This document shows positions 1 to 5,285 of a DNA stretch of 5,285 nucleotides, one piece after another. The notes under the pieces are model-generated. The model was not told where the DNA came from and did no database searches. It saw only the letters and a list, made by a program, of their open reading frames with translations. The translations under genes and the position numbers were made by a program. How positions within the stretch are numbered: the first letter of the stretch is position 1; every line of letters starts with the position of its first letter. Origin of the DNA: Bacillota bacterium (GTDB lineage: Bacteria; Bacillota_E; RBS10-35; JAJYVN01); contig JAJZWQ010000193.1 of the NCBI GenBank assembly GCA_021846605.1, positions 1 to 5,285 on the forward strand. Direction: 5' to 3'.

Positions 1-156
1 GCGCAGAACATCAAGGATGCGGGGCTCGCGGAACTGGCCGCCGGGCTGGCGGCGTCTGCCTGTGGAGGGGACGTAAGCCTACCCGGAAACGGGTGGGCGG
101 ACCCCGGCGAAGCAGGAAGCCCCGGTGGGCGATCACCGGGAATCCCCCGGCTTTAG
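1..156 (+). CDS. tnpB: TnpB RNA-guided nuclease, C-terminal end (partial)
   Basis: The frame is open from base 1 to the TAG at 154-156, giving 51 residues that start AQNIKDAGLAELAAGL and continue ...ACGGDVSLPGN... to the end SPGIPRL. In TnpB proteins of IS200/IS605 elements the third RuvC Asp is followed by a D-x-N-A-A-x-N-I stretch, a short helix, and often an ACGGDV-like tail. This fragment therefore starts just after the last catalytic motif. The catalytic domains and zinc finger lie upstream of the window. TnpB is an RNA-guided DNA endonuclease that cuts the empty donor site and so helps the element persist. The last codons read through the right-end hairpin, so coding sequence, omega RNA and transposon end overlap. 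The tail beyond ACGGDV is poorly conserved in the family. Whether the full gene is intact cannot be judged here. Confidence 0.85.
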   Translation, partial: AQNIKDAGLAELAAGLAASACGGDVSLPGNGWADPGEAGSPGGRSPGIPRL

Positions 157-174
157 CCGTGGGGAGGAGGTCAA
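61..174 (+). ncRNA. TnpB omega RNA, 3' scaffold
   Basis: Three hairpins follow one another at the 3' end of tnpB. 78-97 is an 8-pair stem (one G-T) capped by a GAAA tetraloop. 121-140 is a perfect 7-pair stem (CCCGGTG/CACCGGG) with a 6-base loop. 144-164 is the terminal hairpin with one unpaired T. In TnpB systems the omega RNA is cut from the 3' end of the tnpB transcript and ends at the element's right end, with the guide read from flanking DNA. The structures here fit that. The 5' limit is arbitrary: the true scaffold probably begins further up in tnpB, and position 61 only marks where clear pairing starts nearby. Confidence 0.75.
144..174 (+). mobile_element. IS200/IS605-type right end with bulged-T hairpin
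   Basis: The imperfect palindrome at 144-164 pairs CCCC with GGGG and CGGC with GCCG around a TTTA loop, leaving T160 unpaired in the 3' arm. Subterminal hairpins with one extrahelical T are the sites bound by Y1 transposases of this family (known for IS608). Seven bases later comes TCAA (171-174), the same tetranucleotide as the IS608 right-end cleavage site, so the element probably ends at 174 or 175. Host DNA starts immediately after. The first ~16-20 bases from 175 would be the guide of the omega RNA. Confidence 0.75.
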
Positions 175-392
175 CCAGTGGCTCGAGGCCGCCCGGGGGA
201 GTTCCGCACGCGAGGCCGGACTGGTCCTTTTGCCGATGAACGCGCTCTCCGCGGTCATCAGCGCCGTGCGGCCTCGCAGTTCCAACCGGCCCAGCCCCGC
301 GGCCCCCTGCCGTTCCGCCCCGGCCCGCGCTACGCGCCCGCCGGCCGCGTCCGGAACCGGGAAGGGGCCGCGCGCGCTGGTCAGTCCACGGG
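175..392. other. Non-coding spacer between IS end and dioxygenase gene
   Basis: These 218 bases lie between the right end of the tnpB element and the stop codon of the minus-strand dioxygenase gene. The open frames here are GC-rich shadows with Arg/Pro/Ala-rich translations and no family resemblance. No hairpin followed by a T-run, as expected of an intrinsic terminator for the minus-strand genes, was found. The nearest oddity is the 9-base direct repeat GGTCAGTCC at 379-387 and 391-399, which spans the stop codon. Confidence 0.5.
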
Positions 393-1181
393 TCAGTCCG
401 AGAGGACCGCGCACCCGCGGAAGGGCATGTGGTCGCCCGCCCGGTAACGGGGCCGGGGCGCATAGGTGTTGATGCCAGGGACGGGGCGCCCGCGCAGCAG
501 GAAGGCGCACGGCCACTCCGGGACGGTGATCCGGGTCGTCGTCGGAATGTAGCGGATCGTGAGGCCGCAGCGGCGCAGGTCGGAGTGGTTGGCCTCCGAT
601 CCGTGGACGACGTTGGGGTGGTGCACCTCGACACCGCCGGCCGGCAGGATGCAGTCGACCGCGCGGCCCTCCTCCACCAGGGCGTCGTCCATGGCGGAGC
701 CCAGGACGTTGGCGACATCCTGCCGGGCCTGCATCTTCTGCAACTGCATGTGCTGGGTGCCAGGGATCACGCGCAGGCAGCCGTTCTCCCGGACCGAGTC
801 ATCGACGGCCAGCCACAGCGTGACCACCTGCATGGGGTCCAGCGGCCAGTAGCTCCCGTCCTGGTGCCAGAGCACCGGCTGGCCGTCGCGCGGGGGCTTG
901 CAGATGTAGTGCGAGGCGAACAGGGCGATATCCGGACCGATGAAGACCTCCGCGATGTCCAGCAGGCGGTCGTCGCTCACCAGGCGCACCCAGAAGGGGT
1001 CGTCGGCCATGAGCGTGTGACCGAGTTGCTCGGGGCGGAGATCCGGATGCCGCTTCTGCAGCCACTCGACGTGCGCCTGCGCCTCGGCCACCAGACCCGC
1101 GTCCAACACATGCGGGAAGAGCATGTATCCCTCTTTGTCGTACTGGCGGCGGATCTCCGCGCGTTCCTCTGCGGTCGGCAT
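393..1181 (-). CDS. Phytanoyl-CoA dioxygenase (PhyH) family protein
   Basis: This is a 262-residue cytoplasmic Fe(II)/2-oxoglutarate-dependent dioxygenase of the PhyH family, whose members hydroxylate small organic substrates using O2 and 2-oxoglutarate. The iron triad is visible: H106 and D108 in LWHQDGSYWPLD, and the distal H193 in VVHGSEANHSDLRR. R204, 11 residues after H193, fits the 2-oxoglutarate-binding Arg, the same spacing as in human PHYH. The N-terminus (EIRRQYDKEGYMLFPHVL) is the usual PhyH opening and the length is normal. The ATG at 1181-1179 is chosen because AAGGGG lies 9 bases upstream and the family N-terminus begins there. The frame stays open far upstream, but that part overlaps the isomerase gene and is not coding. 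It is the second gene of a unit with the isomerase, 53 bases downstream of it. The substrate is unknown; bacterial PhyH proteins of this kind are often next to sugar isomerases and oxidoreductases. Confidence 0.9.
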   Translation of the reverse strand: MPTAEERAEIRRQYDKEGYMLFPHVLDAGLVAEAQAHVEWLQKRHPDLRPEQLGHTLMADDPFWVRLVSDDRLLDIAEVFIGPDIALFASHYICKPPRDGQPVLWHQDGSYWPLDPMQVVTLWLAVDDSVRENGCLRVIPGTQHMQLQKMQARQDVANVLGSAMDDALVEEGRAVDCILPAGGVEVHHPNVVHGSEANHSDLRRCGLTIRYIPTTTRITVPEWPCAFLLRGRPVPGINTYAPRPRYRAGDHMPFRGCAVLSD

Positions 1182-1234: not shown

Positions 1235-1954
1235 CTATGCGCCGGGGAGGGCCGCGCGCACCGCGGCCCCCGCCTGGCGAACGGCCGGGGTGGGGTCGTT
1301 CTCGTCGGCCTCGTACTCCAGGACGAAGGGCGACGCCATGCCGGCCTCCTCCAGGGCGCGCAGGGTGGCCGGCAGGTCCAGACGACCGGTTCCCGGCAGG
1401 ACCTCGGTGTCCGCATCCACGAAGTCCTTCAGGTGCACGGCGTGGACCCGGGGGCGCAACTGGCCGATGACGGCGACCGGCTCCTCCCCGGAGCGGAGGA
1501 AGTGACCGGTGTCGACGCAGGCGCCCAGCACCGGCGGGTTGTGCGCGAGCACCGCGGCCACGCTGGCGGCCGTGCTGTAGTGATGGCCGGGCCCGTGGTT
1601 GTGGATGCCCAGTTTGATCCCCAGTTGCTCGGCCAGGGCGCAGGCCTCCGCCTGCACCGACCGTTCGTTCGGCGCGACGTCGACGCTCAGGTAGTCGCAC
1701 CCCAGCCGCCGGGCCAGGCGCAGCTGCCCCGGGGTGTTCGGGCCCAGGCGCACCACCCCGTAACCGCAGATGCGCAGTCCCCGCGCGGCGACCTCCTCCA
1801 GCAGGCGCTCGGCCTCGGCGTCGGGCGCCTCCGGGCGCAGGTGTCCGGGCCAGAGCTCGATCGCCTCCAAACCGGCCGCCCTGACCTCGTCGAGCATCTT
1901 CAGCACCGGGAAGTGGCGGTACGTGTAACTCTGCACCCCGACGGTCCGCGCCAT
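1235..1954 (-). CDS. Sugar phosphate isomerase/epimerase (TIM barrel, AP-endonuclease-2-like)
   Basis: A 239-residue protein of the xylose-isomerase-like TIM-barrel superfamily, which isomerises or epimerises sugars, inositol derivatives or their oxidised forms using a divalent metal. Barrel-strand motifs occur in order: VGVQSYTYR at the N-terminus, AIELWPGH (E33), GIHNHG (118-121), CVDTGHF (D148, H151), HAVHLKDF (H174), PGTGRLD (187-193) and FVLEYE (E213). E33, D148, H174 and E213 are the likely metal ligands by family pattern. It is slightly short for the family (often 250-290 residues) but no core motif is missing. The ATG at 1954 has GGAGGG 7 bases upstream and gives the expected start MARTVGVQSY. 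It is the first gene of the minus-strand unit, followed by the PhyH gene, and diverges from the lipoprotein gene. The exact substrate cannot be read from sequence. Confidence 0.9.
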   Translation of the reverse strand: MARTVGVQSYTYRHFPVLKMLDEVRAAGLEAIELWPGHLRPEAPDAEAERLLEEVAARGLRICGYGVVRLGPNTPGQLRLARRLGCDYLSVDVAPNERSVQAEACALAEQLGIKLGIHNHGPGHHYSTAASVAAVLAHNPPVLGACVDTGHFLRSGEEPVAVIGQLRPRVHAVHLKDFVDADTEVLPGTGRLDLPATLRALEEAGMASPFVLEYEADENDPTPAVRQAGAAVRAALPGA

Positions 1955-2202
1955 CTGCCATCCCTCCACGTCTTCCGCGTCGCGCGGGGGCCTGCCGCGC
2001 CCCGGCCCCGTTTCCCCGCCGCGGGTCGCCTGCACCGGCCCGCGCGCGGACGGGGTCACCCTGCTGGGTGGATTCGGCGGAGCGGGCGCAGTTGCTGCCG
2101 GCCCGGGCAGGTGCGCACATCCTGCAGGGTGGGGAGCGGGCGTTCCCGGGCAGGGAATGCGGCCTGGCAACCGAAACAACGACACTCCCAGGGGGTGTTG
2201 CG
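1955..2202. promoter_or_regulatory. Divergent intergenic region
   Basis: These 248 bases separate the starts of the isomerase (-) and the lipoprotein (+), so promoters for both should lie here. No convincing -35/-10 pair was found on either strand; the region is very GC-rich. The clearest symmetric site is TTCCC-GGGCA-GGGAA at 2143-2157, a possible operator but short enough to be chance. A GTG-initiated frame extends into this region from 2068, in frame with the lipoprotein, but it has no good ribosome site and would put 45 residues before the signal peptide. Confidence 0.4.
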
Positions 2203-2205
2203 TTG
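2190..2205 (+). promoter_or_regulatory. Ribosome binding site deciding the TTG start
   Basis: AGGGGG at 2190-2195 lies 7 bases before TTG at 2203-2205. Starting here gives the compact N-terminus MDRAGGLGRRDLLK, ideal for a Tat signal, whereas the upstream GTG at 2068 lacks a Shine-Dalgarno. This favours the rare TTG start. Confidence 0.6.
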
Positions 2206-4938
2206 GATCGGGCTGGGGGACTCGGCCGCAGGGATTTGCTGAAGGCGGCCGGGTTGCTTCCTGTCCTGGGGGCGCTACCCCTCCTGTCGGGCTGTGCCGT
2301 CCCAGGCGCCAGCCAATCGGGCAGACAGGCCCAGGGCTGGCTGCCCGCCCCGGCGGCCATGCCGGGCACGCTGCTGGTGGTCGACCTCAACGGGGTTTCC
2401 CTCGAGACCCAGGTGACCCTGTCCATCATGGAGGGCGTCGTCAACTCCCGGCTGCGGCACGGCGGCGAGGGGCTGTACCTGCTGCTGCCGTCCAACTACG
2501 TGGGGGGCGTCGCCTTCCAGGGGTCGGACCAGCGCTGGCTGGACGTCTACGCCAAGGCCTACGGCATCCGCTACCACAGCGGCACGCCGACGGACGCCGT
2601 CGCCCTGGCCAAGGCCAGCGGCATCACCGAGTACGTGATCTGGGATCCCACCGTCCCGGCCACCATTAACGTGGCCAATACCCTGGCCTGGCTCGACGGG
2701 ACCCTGGCCGTGTCCCCGCAGGATGCCGGGTCGGCCCTGCAGGGCCCCGCCGGGCTCCTGGCCGGCGGACTGGCCCTGGCCCAGCGCGGCTTCAAACAGG
2801 CGCTGGACCTGCGTACGCAGGACTTCGCCAGCGCGGACGCCGCCTATGCCTGGGCCCTGGCCCGCCTGGGTAAGCAGGTACCCGACACGCTGGCGTTCGT
2901 CTCGGTGGGCGACCTGCCCGGCGACCCCACGGAGGACGTGATCCGCTGGACGCCCCGCGACTACGCGGTGGTGGCGCGCGCCTTCGCCTGGATCGGCGAG
3001 TTGGGCCCCAACCCGGTGGCGCCGGGGGTCCTGACCGACCTGTTCAAACTGGTCTCCCCCCGTAAGTCCACGGTGTTCGGCTGGACCAACAACGAGTCGG
3101 TGCAGACCATCCTCTGCAGCCAGAACGGCGTGGCCTTCGTGGGTGCCGACACCCCGGGGCTCTCGGCGGAGAACCTGAGCGTGCACAGCGCCATCCGCGG
3201 CAGTGTGCGCCAGAAGCAGCTGGCGGCCGCCCCCGCCCTGGCCGCCGACGGGGTGTATGCGGCGATCGTCATCACCGACGGCGACAACATCTCCGTGCTG
3301 ATCGACTTCCATGAGGGGCGCTGGCTGGACCCCAATCGGGGCAAGGTCCCGGTCGGCTGGTCCATGCAGGGGATGGCACCGAGCTGGACGTCGGGGATCG
3401 CGCGCCACTACTTCGATACCGCCACGGCCAACGACGAATTTGTGGCCTGGCTGCCATTCGGCTATCCAGACCTGGCCTCGTTTGTGGGGCACCCCAACTG
3501 GCCCGCCTACACGGCGTCGGTGCGCGCGGCCATGCACGATGCCCGCCTGGCTGTCGGACAGTCGCTGCCCCACACGGGCGGGATCCTGACCGCCGAGACG
3601 TCGGGGCTGTCGGAGATTCTGCACGGGACCGATGCGCCCGATGGGTTCCTGCTCGGATACACCAGCATCTCGGGGTATCCCGCGGGGCAGGCGCTGTGGA
3701 TCAACAGCCGGCCCGTCTTTCCGATGGGTGGCCTGGGTGGGCAGGGCAGCACGCAGGTCGAGCAGGCCATCAGCGCCATCCAGGGGGCGGTGCAGGCCGT
3801 GTCCCATCGGCCGCTGTTCGTCGTGGTCGGGCTGCAGAACGGCACCACGTACACCGACGCCATGGATGTCGCCCAGGCGAAGTACAGCGAGGCGGTGCGC
3901 TTTGTCCTGCCGGGCCAACTGGTGGACATGGCCCGGCAGGCGTGGAAGGCGGGGATGGACCGCGCCGCGCCGCTCGGCAGCCCGGCGACATACGGCGCGC
4001 TCGATACGTACTACCTGCTGTCCGCCGGCGACAGCGGGAGGACCTCGTCGCCGGGGACCTACCAGCGGGACAAATTCGTGGCGGAGTTGCGCCAGGCCAC
4101 CGACGGCGGGCAGTGGCAGTATGCATTCAACGTGGAGGGCTGCCACCAGGTCAGCGCCGAGATCGTGGTCACGGGCGCGGGCACCGTGGAGGCCAGCAAG
4201 GACGGAACGACGTGGCTCCCCGTGGGGACCGTGACGCAGTCCTGGGGGACGTTCAGCGTCCTCACGGCGGATCTCTCCAGCCTGCTGCCGACGACGCAGG
4301 TCTACCTGCGCTTTCAGGCGGCGGCGCAGGCCATGTTCGCGGCGCTGGACATCAACCTGTGGTACAACCGCCTGCTGGCGGGGGCGCGGCTGCCCGCGGC
4401 GACCCGCACGGCCACGTCGGCGGAACTGAACATGCAGGTGCCGACCGCCAATGCGCAGTCGGTATCGGTGGTGCTGGGCGGCTCGACCGCTTCGCTGAAC
4501 CTGTCGCAGGTCGGCGCCCACGTGGGGGACAGCAACTTCCACACGGCCACGGTGGGCGGGAAGACCGCGGAGGTGTTCGACCAGAACCGGACATCGGCCG
4601 CATCGCACGTGTCGTACCTCTACTTCACGGCGGACGTGCCCGGCTGGGTGTTCCCGCAGACCCTCTACCTCAGCGTCGAGTACTACGACCAGCCCGCCAG
4701 CGGCCTCCTGCACGTCTCGTACAACTCCACGGCGACGGGCCTCTCCGGTGCCTACGCTTCGGGCGGCAGTCCCCTGAGCCTGGGGGGAACCGCGTCCTGG
4801 AAGACCAGCACCTGGACGCTGCCCGACGCTGATTTCACCGGACGTCAGAACAATGCCGCCGACTTCCGCATCACGGGCTCGCCGGGCGTGGCCGTGCACC
4901 GCCTGACGCTCTCCCGGACCCCGCCCGCCGGGGGGTAG
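2203..4938 (+). CDS. Tat-exported lipoprotein with GxGYxYP domains and C-terminal beta-rich regions
   Basis: With the TTG start the product has 911 residues. Residues 1-31 are a Tat lipoprotein signal: R9-R10 in GRRDLLK, a hydrophobic stretch, and the lipobox LLSGC with C31 as the lipidated residue, so it should be anchored outside the membrane. About 55-260 resembles the GxGYxYP N-terminal domain (LLVVDLNGVSLETQVTLSIM, then VNSR and WLDVY). About 347-583 resembles the GxGYxYP C domain: YAAIVITDGDN (352-362), VGWSMQGMAPSW and FVAWLPFGYPDLASF. The name-giving motif appears here only as LPFGYPD (417-423), a divergent form. About 600-725 and 735-911 are Ser/Thr/Gly-rich with beta-type alternation, like carbohydrate-binding modules (inferred). 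GxGYxYP proteins are suspected, not shown, to be glycoside hydrolases. It is divergent from the isomerase/dioxygenase unit, which suggests a shared sugar-related role. Codon use is uniformly GC-rich, with no break. Confidence 0.8.
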   Translation: MDRAGGLGRRDLLKAAGLLPVLGALPLLSGCAVPGASQSGRQAQGWLPAPAAMPGTLLVVDLNGVSLETQVTLSIMEGVVNSRLRHGGEGLYLLLPSNYVGGVAFQGSDQRWLDVYAKAYGIRYHSGTPTDAVALAKASGITEYVIWDPTVPATINVANTLAWLDGTLAVSPQDAGSALQGPAGLLAGGLALAQRGFKQALDLRTQDFASADAAYAWALARLGKQVPDTLAFVSVGDLPGDPTEDVIRWTPRDYAVVARAFAWIGELGPNPVAPGVLTDLFKLVSPRKSTVFGWTNNESVQTILCSQNGVAFVGADTPGLSAENLSVHSAIRGSVRQKQLAAAPALAADGVYAAIVITDGDNISVLIDFHEGRWLDPNRGKVPVGWSMQGMAPSWTSGIARHYFDTATANDEFVAWLPFGYPDLASFVGHPNWPAYTASVRAAMHDARLAVGQSLPHTGGILTAETSGLSEILHGTDAPDGFLLGYTSISGYPAGQALWINSRPVFPMGGLGGQGSTQVEQAISAIQGAVQAVSHRPLFVVVGLQNGTTYTDAMDVAQAKYSEAVRFVLPGQLVDMARQAWKAGMDRAAPLGSPATYGALDTYYLLSAGDSGRTSSPGTYQRDKFVAELRQATDGGQWQYAFNVEGCHQVSAEIVVTGAGTVEASKDGTTWLPVGTVTQSWGTFSVLTADLSSLLPTTQVYLRFQAAAQAMFAALDINLWYNRLLAGARLPAATRTATSAELNMQVPTANAQSVSVVLGGSTASLNLSQVGAHVGDSNFHTATVGGKTAEVFDQNRTSAASHVSYLYFTADVPGWVFPQTLYLSVEYYDQPASGLLHVSYNSTATGLSGAYASGGSPLSLGGTASWKTSTWTLPDADFTGRQNNAADFRITGSPGVAVHRLTLSRTPPAGG

Positions 4939-5167
4939 CCCGGCTCATCAAATCTCCGCGCGGCCGTCTGATACCCTCGGATTCAGCCGTGGGCTGGGCC
5001 GCGCGCTCCCTCCCCTGGGGTAGATTGTGGTAAGATGGAGACGCACCTTGAAAATCGAATGTATGGCGTTGCGCCGAAGAATCCGTCGGCGCGTAAAACG
5101 TTCGCGGAACATGCGGGAGATAGGCGTTGTCCAAAGGCACCGGCTTGCCGGTAACAGTTTCGGACAT
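4871..5167 (-). CDS. Short ORF after the omega-RNA-like leader; possible iscB remnant
   Basis: A 98-codon frame starts at ATG 5167-5165 with an excellent ribosome site, GGGAGGTGA (5181-5173), 5 bases upstream. The product begins MSETVTGKPVPLDNAYLPHVPRT. The position is right for IscB, whose gene follows its omega RNA, and GKPVPL faintly recalls the PLMP motif near the IscB N-terminus. No arginine-rich bridge, RuvC or HNH motif is present, so the family is not recognised. The first ~48 codons (to about 5021) use mixed third bases. The rest runs through the left-end hairpin and antisense to the lipoprotein gene, where it is surely not a natural protein. Most likely this is the beginning of a nuclease gene whose body was deleted, or a small unrelated peptide. 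A GTG at 5176 is in frame but lies inside the ribosome site. Confidence 0.35.
   Translation of the reverse strand: MSETVTGKPVPLDNAYLPHVPRTFYAPTDSSAQRHTFDFQGASPSYHNLPQGRERAAQPTAESEGIRRPRGDLMSRATPRRAGSGRASGGARPRPASP
4957..5005. repeat. Inverted repeat enclosing the left-end-like hairpin
   Basis: CGCGCGGCC (4957-4965) is perfectly complementary to GGCCGCGCG (4997-5005). The smaller hairpin at 4974-4993 nests inside, so the whole stretch can form a long two-part stem 19 bases after the lipoprotein stop. It could end transcription of that gene, though no T-run follows on the plus strand, or belong to the transposon end. Confidence 0.5.
4974..4994 (+). mobile_element. Left-end-like hairpin of a miniature IS200/IS605 element
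   Basis: This stretch matches the right-end hairpin at 5258-5278 at 17 of 21 aligned positions, in the same orientation. It folds as CCC/GGG, a T-T mismatch, CGG/CCG and an ATTCAG loop. The T at 4990 sits in the same place as the unpaired T of the right end. IS200/IS605 elements carry similar, same-orientation hairpins near both ends, so this is a good candidate for the partner left end. The exact cleavage site could not be placed. Confidence 0.55.
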
Positions 5168-5285
5168 AAGCGTCACCTCCCTTGCCAGCCTCGCTATACG
5201 TGGGACTGGCGGGCCGCTGTCAGACGGCCTATCGCAGCACGATCCGGTAGCTGCAAGCCCCCGGCTTTAGCCGTGGGGTCCTGAC
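5168..5285 (-). ncRNA. HEARO/IscB-type omega RNA candidate
   Basis: Read on the minus strand from 5285, the stretch folds into several stems. GTCAG (5285-5281) pairs with CTGAC (5223-5219) and encloses the 8-pair hairpin with one bulged A at 5278-5258 and the stem GCAGC/GCTGC (5254-5250 with 5238-5234). A separate hairpin GCCAG/CTGGC (5210-5206 with 5188-5184) follows, then the ribosome site and ATG. The sequence GGCTT/AGGCC (5259-5255 with 5230-5226) can extend the second stem in competition with the first. HEARO RNAs, now known as IscB omega RNAs, sit directly upstream of an ORF start, have multi-stem folds and carry the guide at their 5' side. The guide here would come from DNA beyond 5285. 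This is identified by position and fold, not by a database match. Confidence 0.55.
5258..5278 (+). mobile_element. Right-end hairpin, exact copy of the one in the tnpB element
   Basis: All 21 bases are identical to 144-164, including the unpaired T (5274). The bases around it differ (AAG before, TCCTGAC after), so this is not one long duplication but a conserved end signal. The stop frame ...SPRL-TAG read on the plus strand also resembles the tnpB tail, but the upstream codons do not resemble TnpB. Confidence 0.75.

Follow-up and report, generated by a model that had tools for sequence, protein, structure and literature searches.

A nuclease-free TnpB-type mini-element with a structured leader RNA and a boxA-like motif, a probable IS200/IS605 satellite in Bacillota

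Results and discussion

Organization of the locus

The window analysed here, i.e. the whole stretch of 5,285 nt from contig JAJZWQ010000193.1 of a Bacillota bacterium, encodes three products recognized by Pfam, a PhyH dioxygenase, a xylose-isomerase-like TIM barrel protein and a GxGYxYP putative glycoside hydrolase, which perhaps make up a sugar-use neighbourhood (Table 1). Ten bases past the stop codon of the GxGYxYP gene lies the start of a short element, at position 4949, and this element fills the remainder of the window.

Table 1 Features of the 5,285-nt window. Positions are those of the forward strand.
Feature	Positions	Strand	Basis or remark
Second TnpB-type end	1-178	+	Tail AQNIKDAGLAELAA... 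(1-156), hairpin 145-164, then AGGAGGTCAAC; assigned by eye
PhyH dioxygenase	393-1181	-	Pfam
Xylose-isomerase-like TIM barrel	1238-1954	-	Pfam
GxGYxYP putative glycoside hydrolase	2107-4935	+	Pfam
ORF MSETVTGKPVPL... (MSETV...)	4871-5167	-	Mostly antisense to the element; not considered a gene
Target tetranucleotide TCAT (consensus YCAY)	4945-4948	+	Boundary from alignment; putative TAM
Non-autonomous TnpB-type mini-element, 337 nt	4949-5285	+	Full-length relatives elsewhere, sharp ends
Left-end palindrome region	4971-4994	+	Repeat comparison; 75% like the right-end hairpin
Candidate extended -10 promoter-like site TGGTAAGAT	5028-5036	+	Read by eye
boxA-like motif CACCTTGAAAATCGAATG	5044-5061	+	16/18 to the motif derived from the elements
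Central structured RNA domain	5055-5183	+	Covariance model R1, 143.1 bits (window in training set)
Helices of the central domain	5057-5061/5099-5103, 5071-5077/5086-5092, 5115-5119/5177-5181, 5129-5132/5162-5165	+
TnpB C-terminal tail remnant LASLAIRGTGGPLSDGLSQHDPVAASPRL	5181-5270, stop 5268-5270	+	Similarity to the TnpB fragment of G006:C243
Stem GCCAG/CTGGC	5184-5188/5206-5210
Putative TnpB omega-RNA scaffold	5211-5285	+	Stems, pseudoknot and TnpB homology; guide would begin at 5286
First scaffold helix	5211-5216/5225-5230	+
Scaffold pseudoknot GTCAG/CTGAC	5219-5223/5281-5285	+
Scaffold stem GCAGC/GCTGC	5234-5238/5250-5254	+
Scaffold hairpin	5259-5278	+

The right end is assigned to a TnpB-type transposon

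The segment 5168-5285 had been interpreted in a first-pass annotation as the gene of a minus-strand IscB-type (HEARO) omega RNA that had lost its nuclease ORF or retained a very short one; standalone IscB omega RNAs are reportedly mentioned by Altae-Tran 2021. All of the stems described there are present at the positions given. On either strand, the predicted fold of the segment is more stable than those of dinucleotide shuffles, with a larger margin on the plus strand (-54.7 kcal/mol, z -2.49, 2/200 shuffles equally good) than on the minus strand (-52.9 kcal/mol, z -1.57, 16/200). The pairing of GTCAG with CTGAC, previously taken for a closing stem, is real, but its nature is that of a pseudoknot, one that shows strong compensatory change between copies.

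Family and strand were assigned by comparison with TnpB. The translation of 5181-5267 was identical at 25 of 28 residues to the C-terminus (HADLNAARNIGANHLASLATRGTGGPPSTGLSQHDPVAASPRL) of a TnpB fragment encoded by G006:C243, in which Pfam detects a Cas12f1-like_TNB domain (82.3 bits). Furthermore, 5211-5279 on the plus strand matches plasmid NC_015665 (79%, 24% of the query) at the 3' end of an annotated TnpB gene, from its last codons into what follows, and in genomes of the family that includes G001 the segment continues the TnpB frame. The scaffold overlaps the tnpB 3' end on the same strand. By this homology, the right end, read on the plus strand, belongs to a TnpB-type transposon and is the part that specifies its guide RNA; it is not an IscB guide RNA. 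The earlier proposal is borne out, in TnpB form, in that a scaffold for an RNA guide lies at the end of a transposon lacking a nuclease gene, which makes action in trans plausible. The guide of the window copy is out of view, as the window stops exactly at the right end of the element.

The Rfam HEARO model (RF02033) matched the minus strand of 5219-5285 with 13.7 bits (cut-off 83). Although the match starts at the right place, it spans only model positions 1-52 of 211; the other 159 positions were unmatched by the window segment, which also differs from a HEARO locus in lacking an IscB and in its strand. The antisense of the end of the TnpB-encoding element in G006:C243 scores higher still (15.5 bits, E 1.65), so the partial score is best explained as a TnpB end read backwards. 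As a TnpB right end, once reverse-complemented, looks like the 5' domain of HEARO and resembles the first 52 positions of the model, strand errors are easily made in omega-RNA annotation.

No HEARO match above the cut-off was found in the six genomes of the G001 family. G005 contained two matches, of 48.5 and 46.6 bits. The first (L057:1-1692, G005:C118) covers all 211 positions and adjoins an ORF with RRXRR and HNH domains, which make this locus IscB-like; the Rfam cut-off of 83 seems to miss HEARO members of this kind. The second (L059:13-204, G005:C20) heads toward the contig start, and any IscB there would therefore be out of sight. Ten loci (nine mini-elements and one tnpB-derived copy) gave no HEARO match at E<=10, which rules out good matches only, because a 14-bit match would go unlisted at that scan size.

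For the alignment of 13 copies, RNAalifold gave similar folds on the two strands and a slightly better score to the minus strand (-140.4; plus strand, -137.6); the strand assignment therefore rests on the TnpB homology and not on folding. What the first-pass annotation had itself named as evidence against its reading was a missing covariance hit together with a lack of compensatory changes, or homologues always coding on the plus strand. We found no real HEARO hit and plus-strand coding of the TnpB tail in homologues, but compensatory changes do exist; these are uninformative on the strand, since base pairing cannot distinguish the two.

The sequence GGGAGGTGACGCTTATG is present on the minus strand of the segment, and both the ribosome-like site and the ATG reported there exist, but the sequence following them does not look coding. 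At the aligned position, 11 of the 13 copies carry a potential start codon (one ATG, nine GTG, one TTG; the others have TGG and GCG), and none of the 13 translations meets a stop within its 39-47 codons. Indels of one base put the copies in different frames, and substitutions relative to three copies fall on codon positions 1/2/3 as 4/8/5, 6/7/6 and 4/7/6, i.e. with no third-position bias. A Pfam search of the ORF (read as 4874-5176) gave no match, hence no RRXRR, RuvC or HNH domain. Three database proteins are similar to the first part of the ORF. For two of these the similarity is in frame (85% and 77%, covering 47% of the query); in the third (P0003) a stretch is shifted. Given the lack of a Pfam match, the frame drift and the absence of third-position bias, we judge this ORF unlikely to be a gene; it more probably represents the antisense of an RNA.

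The minus-strand ribosome-like site with its ATG, the sub-threshold HEARO match and the slightly better minus-strand fold are what speak for an IscB omega RNA. Set against the short model coverage, the antisense score of a TnpB-element end, the 48.5-bit score of an IscB-like locus and the coding of the TnpB tail in homologues, this reading is refuted as far as sequence can do so, and we consider it close to untenable.

The element occurs as dispersed copies of similar length

A genome scan based on the alignment of the minus-strand ORF yielded 34 pattern stretches and one confirmed locus, in the Bacillota MAG JAJZXK01 (G001), where contig C168 carries a full-length relative of 4938-5285 (82%). 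Matches to the element were found in five of the six family genomes, full or near-full in G001, G003, G005 and G006 and partial in G002; the left part, 4942-5020, was also matched alone. When the window and 15 loci were aligned (16 sequences), both edges were sharp. Three loci were dropped from the 13-sequence alignments, L040 for an internal deletion and L046 and L056 as decayed or tnpB-derived. Measured between conserved end motifs chosen by the analyst, the 13 copies are 312-336 nt long, and YCAY precedes the element in ten of them and is absent from three.

The one clear insertion is found in G005:C491, where the element interrupts a GFO_IDH_MocA oxidoreductase gene. The flanks are in frame with no bases missing or duplicated, and match the left (profile positions 1-54, 23.0 bits) and right (58-119, 21.7 bits) parts of the Pfam family, each half scoring just below the whole-protein cut-off of 24. 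Conserved at both ends, devoid of a transposase gene and present as multiple dispersed copies, the elements have the properties of non-autonomous IS200/IS605 (PATE-like) elements, and on these comparisons 4949-5285 is very likely a mobile, nuclease-free TnpB-type element.

Covariation in the central domain and in the pseudoknot

The central domain had no match in Rfam at E up to 10. RNAalifold predicted 54 pairs for the 13 copies, 20 of them with two-sided changes. In alignment A5, which represents the central domain by 29 pairs in 13 copies, 90.9% of cells are paired, and two-sided changes occupy 30 cells compared to 10.7 +/- 2.5 in shuffles (0/500) and 2-9 in slid controls. Two of the five covariation measures for this domain do not exceed shuffles, namely the number of pairs with a two-sided change (9 vs 7.2, 83/500) and the number of further pair types (25 vs 24.3, 236/500).

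The pseudoknot joins the loop of stem 1 with the 3' end beside the putative guide. Among 23 right ends (19 from alignment A7 and four added by hand), 123 of 138 cells were paired, with 15 two-sided changes where shuffling gave 4.2 (0/2000); moving the register by 1-3 positions left 0-2. Five right ends that had at first been excluded pair at 6, 5, 4, 3 and 2 of 6 positions, three of them poorly, and with these included (28 ends) 143 of 168 cells were paired, with 19 two-sided changes compared to 6.6 (0/2000). The window has GTCAG/CTGAC, the TnpB element of G006 GTCAAC/GTTGAC, the multicopy TnpB element of G001 GTCATG/CATGAC and G001:C47 GTCCAC/GTGGAC. As the copies are kin, the covariation counts are not independent. 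The conserved pairing suggests that the RNA of the element is likely kept by selection.

A promoter-like site and a boxA-like motif precede the central domain

TA-rich sequences similar to the candidate extended -10 site are found at the promoter-like place in several copies, with TATAAT in those of G320. Just before the first hairpin, the elements have a common motif, CACCTTGAAAACCGAACG, derived from the elements themselves. In a set of 31 elements (the window, 28 of the 35 matches of the R1 model in the order, and two of three in G320), 26 score at least 12/18 to this motif and five fall below, compared to scores of 8-9 for the left ends of tnpB-bearing or tnpB-derived copies (n=6, five near-identical) and a mean of 8.8 and a maximum of 13 for random sequence of window composition.

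Nine genomes were searched for 23S rRNA; five had one, four of these with its 5' end. In three of the four, the best boxA-like site of the whole rRNA locus, on both strands, lay 96-152 nt upstream of the 23S gene, which is where the boxA of rRNA operons sits. The scores there, to a motif defined post hoc, were 14/16 in G001 and 12/16 in both G006 and G320; in G002, the best boxA-like site of the locus was not upstream of 23S. A direct comparison of elements with 23S leaders used segments picked after the motif had been seen and is illustrative only. The boxA-like motif may have an antitermination role, which would be exerted on the transcript of the element.

Two distant mini-elements in G320 have a strong TATAAT promoter and the motifs TTCTTTGAAAACT (L120) and TCCTTTGAAAACT (L121), which we take to be very like the boxA of Firmicutes.

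Distribution and possible partners

The R1 model of the central domain gave 35 matches, some incomplete, in six of 13 genomes of the order. Under stricter filters it matched five of 154 genomes in the class, the same five family genomes, and in the phylum sample two of 398, G001 and, weakly (31-32 bits), G320, whose copies have a clear TATAAT and a leader layout as in the element of the window. Viral contig scans returned no relative of the element; in phages, only a 24-nt match was found, in two records of one phage, and among plasmids the central part alone matched one record, over 31 nt.

Three types of right end follow the first hairpin of the domain: the type seen in the window, another found in G001, and an AGGAGG type, assigned by eye, which belongs to elements of ~480 nt in G006. 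These ~480-nt mini-elements (L086, L090, L093 and L098) have only the first leader hairpin in common with the element of the window; their centre is different and rich in hairpins, and L086, L090 and L093 have the AGGAGG-type TnpB-like end.

A TnpB domain is encoded in all six family genomes. In these draft genomes, a Y1 transposase was found in G001, G002 and G004 and not in G003, G005 and G006, each of which carries mini-elements. G004 has a Y1 transposase, yet no match to the element.

A probable satellite element and its possible guide RNA

We interpret the locus as a short non-autonomous IS200/IS605 (TnpB) satellite element with a left end, a promoter-like site, a boxA-like motif, a conserved RNA domain of several hairpins and, as its right end, an omega-RNA scaffold (probability about 0.8). 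Mobility and structure are supported by the TnpB homology, the copies of similar length, the one duplication-free insertion and the conserved pairing, including the pseudoknot. A Y1 transposase (TnpA) encoded elsewhere would move the element. RNA polymerase may transcribe it from the left end, and the boxA-like site would shield the untranslated transcript from termination, such that transcription could run beyond the right end and the neighbouring sequence would become the guide. A TnpB from elsewhere might then bind the RNA and cleave, behind YCAY, the donor site that the element has left, which would favour retention of the element. Whether the RNA works as an omega RNA in trans we regard as an even question.

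TnpB omega RNAs have already been described (PMC8612924), and in the ISDra2 TnpB structure a pseudoknot links the 3' end of the omega RNA to the region of stem 1 (PMC10097598). The element shares with ISDra2-type omega RNAs (reRNAs) the right-end scaffold overlapping the tnpB 3' end, the 3'-end pseudoknot beside stem 1 and, presumably, the guide in the flank (PMC8612924, PMC10097598). Unlike them, the window element is without tnpB and has instead a separate conserved leader domain and a boxA-like motif. Protection by boxA, known for transcripts of rRNA operons and mentioned for CRISPR arrays in one study (PMC12691694), offers a second likeness, in that a boxA-like motif lies close to where the transcript of a non-coding guide RNA presumably has its 5' end; here it is located on a mobile element, and its boxA-like role is putative. 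In the open-licence literature we found neither a TnpB mini-element that has an RNA domain of its own or a boxA nor a family of repeats that combines a conserved leader RNA with a boxA-like site, a statement limited to that literature and not a claim of absence from print.

The satellite reading has to be weighed against two others. Y1 transposases act on single-stranded hairpins, and the element might be an inert relic of which only the transposition ends matter, its RNA being unused. A precedent is the PATE-like IS605 element of Halanaerobium hydrogeniformans (~271 nt), which is likewise short and without transposase and consists of a left end, the last 58 nt of tnpB and a full right end (PMC7290912). 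That element was a single copy, whereas the present elements form a multi-genome family with a conserved, covarying central RNA domain. Transposition ends alone do not account for the two-sided changes that maintain pairing in the central domain and the pseudoknot, and the first leader hairpin is found joined to three TnpB-like end types (the ends being assigned by eye); we hold an inert relic to be unlikely. Still less probable is that the central domain is a fragment of a host rRNA leader, captured by chance and spread passively: the boxA-like motif does resemble the 23S leader in related genomes, but the hairpins that follow it have compensatory changes and the domain recurs in several subfamilies, which argues for selection on it.

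The satellite reading can be extended, tentatively and with odds somewhat short of even, to the proposal that such nuclease-free elements are standalone TnpB guide-RNA genes, each with an rRNA-type boxA leader and a structured RNA domain of its own, which would take their guides from the landing site and borrow TnpA and TnpB of different subtypes by swapping right ends; the swapping is suggested by the first leader hairpin common to three end types. Should the RNAs indeed be used, TnpB in these genomes would be a guide-RNA nuclease that many small non-coding satellites have in common, which would form a natural intermediate between a transposon with a single guide and CRISPR with its arrays of many guides. 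The boxA-like leader, if its role is as proposed, would explain, in a way open to test, how a guide transcript that is not translated extends as far as its guide.

Further TnpB-type ends

The window contains two copies of a 20-mer hairpin, CCCCGGCTTTAGCCGTGGGG, one at 145-164 and the other at 5259-5278; the two are on the plus strand, and shuffled sequence has none (mean 0.00). The first copy overlaps the end of the reading frame AQNIKDAGLAELAA..., and its succession by AGGAGGTCAAC has what we take to be the look of a TnpB right end. The 51-aa tail in 1-178 had no Pfam match, and a weak HgcC match was found at 93-184 (15.2 bits). By eye, 1-178 is the tail of an AGGAGG-type element, resembling that of the mini-element in G006:C383 (L098). 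The window both starts and ends in TnpB-type repeats, like a short-read contig broken at repeats. In plasmid pAt1 of Allochromatium tepidum, a stretch (L003:2480-2540) consists almost wholly of a TnpB-type end hairpin, with no tnpB annotated beside it; the surrounding region presumably reads as PIN-like.
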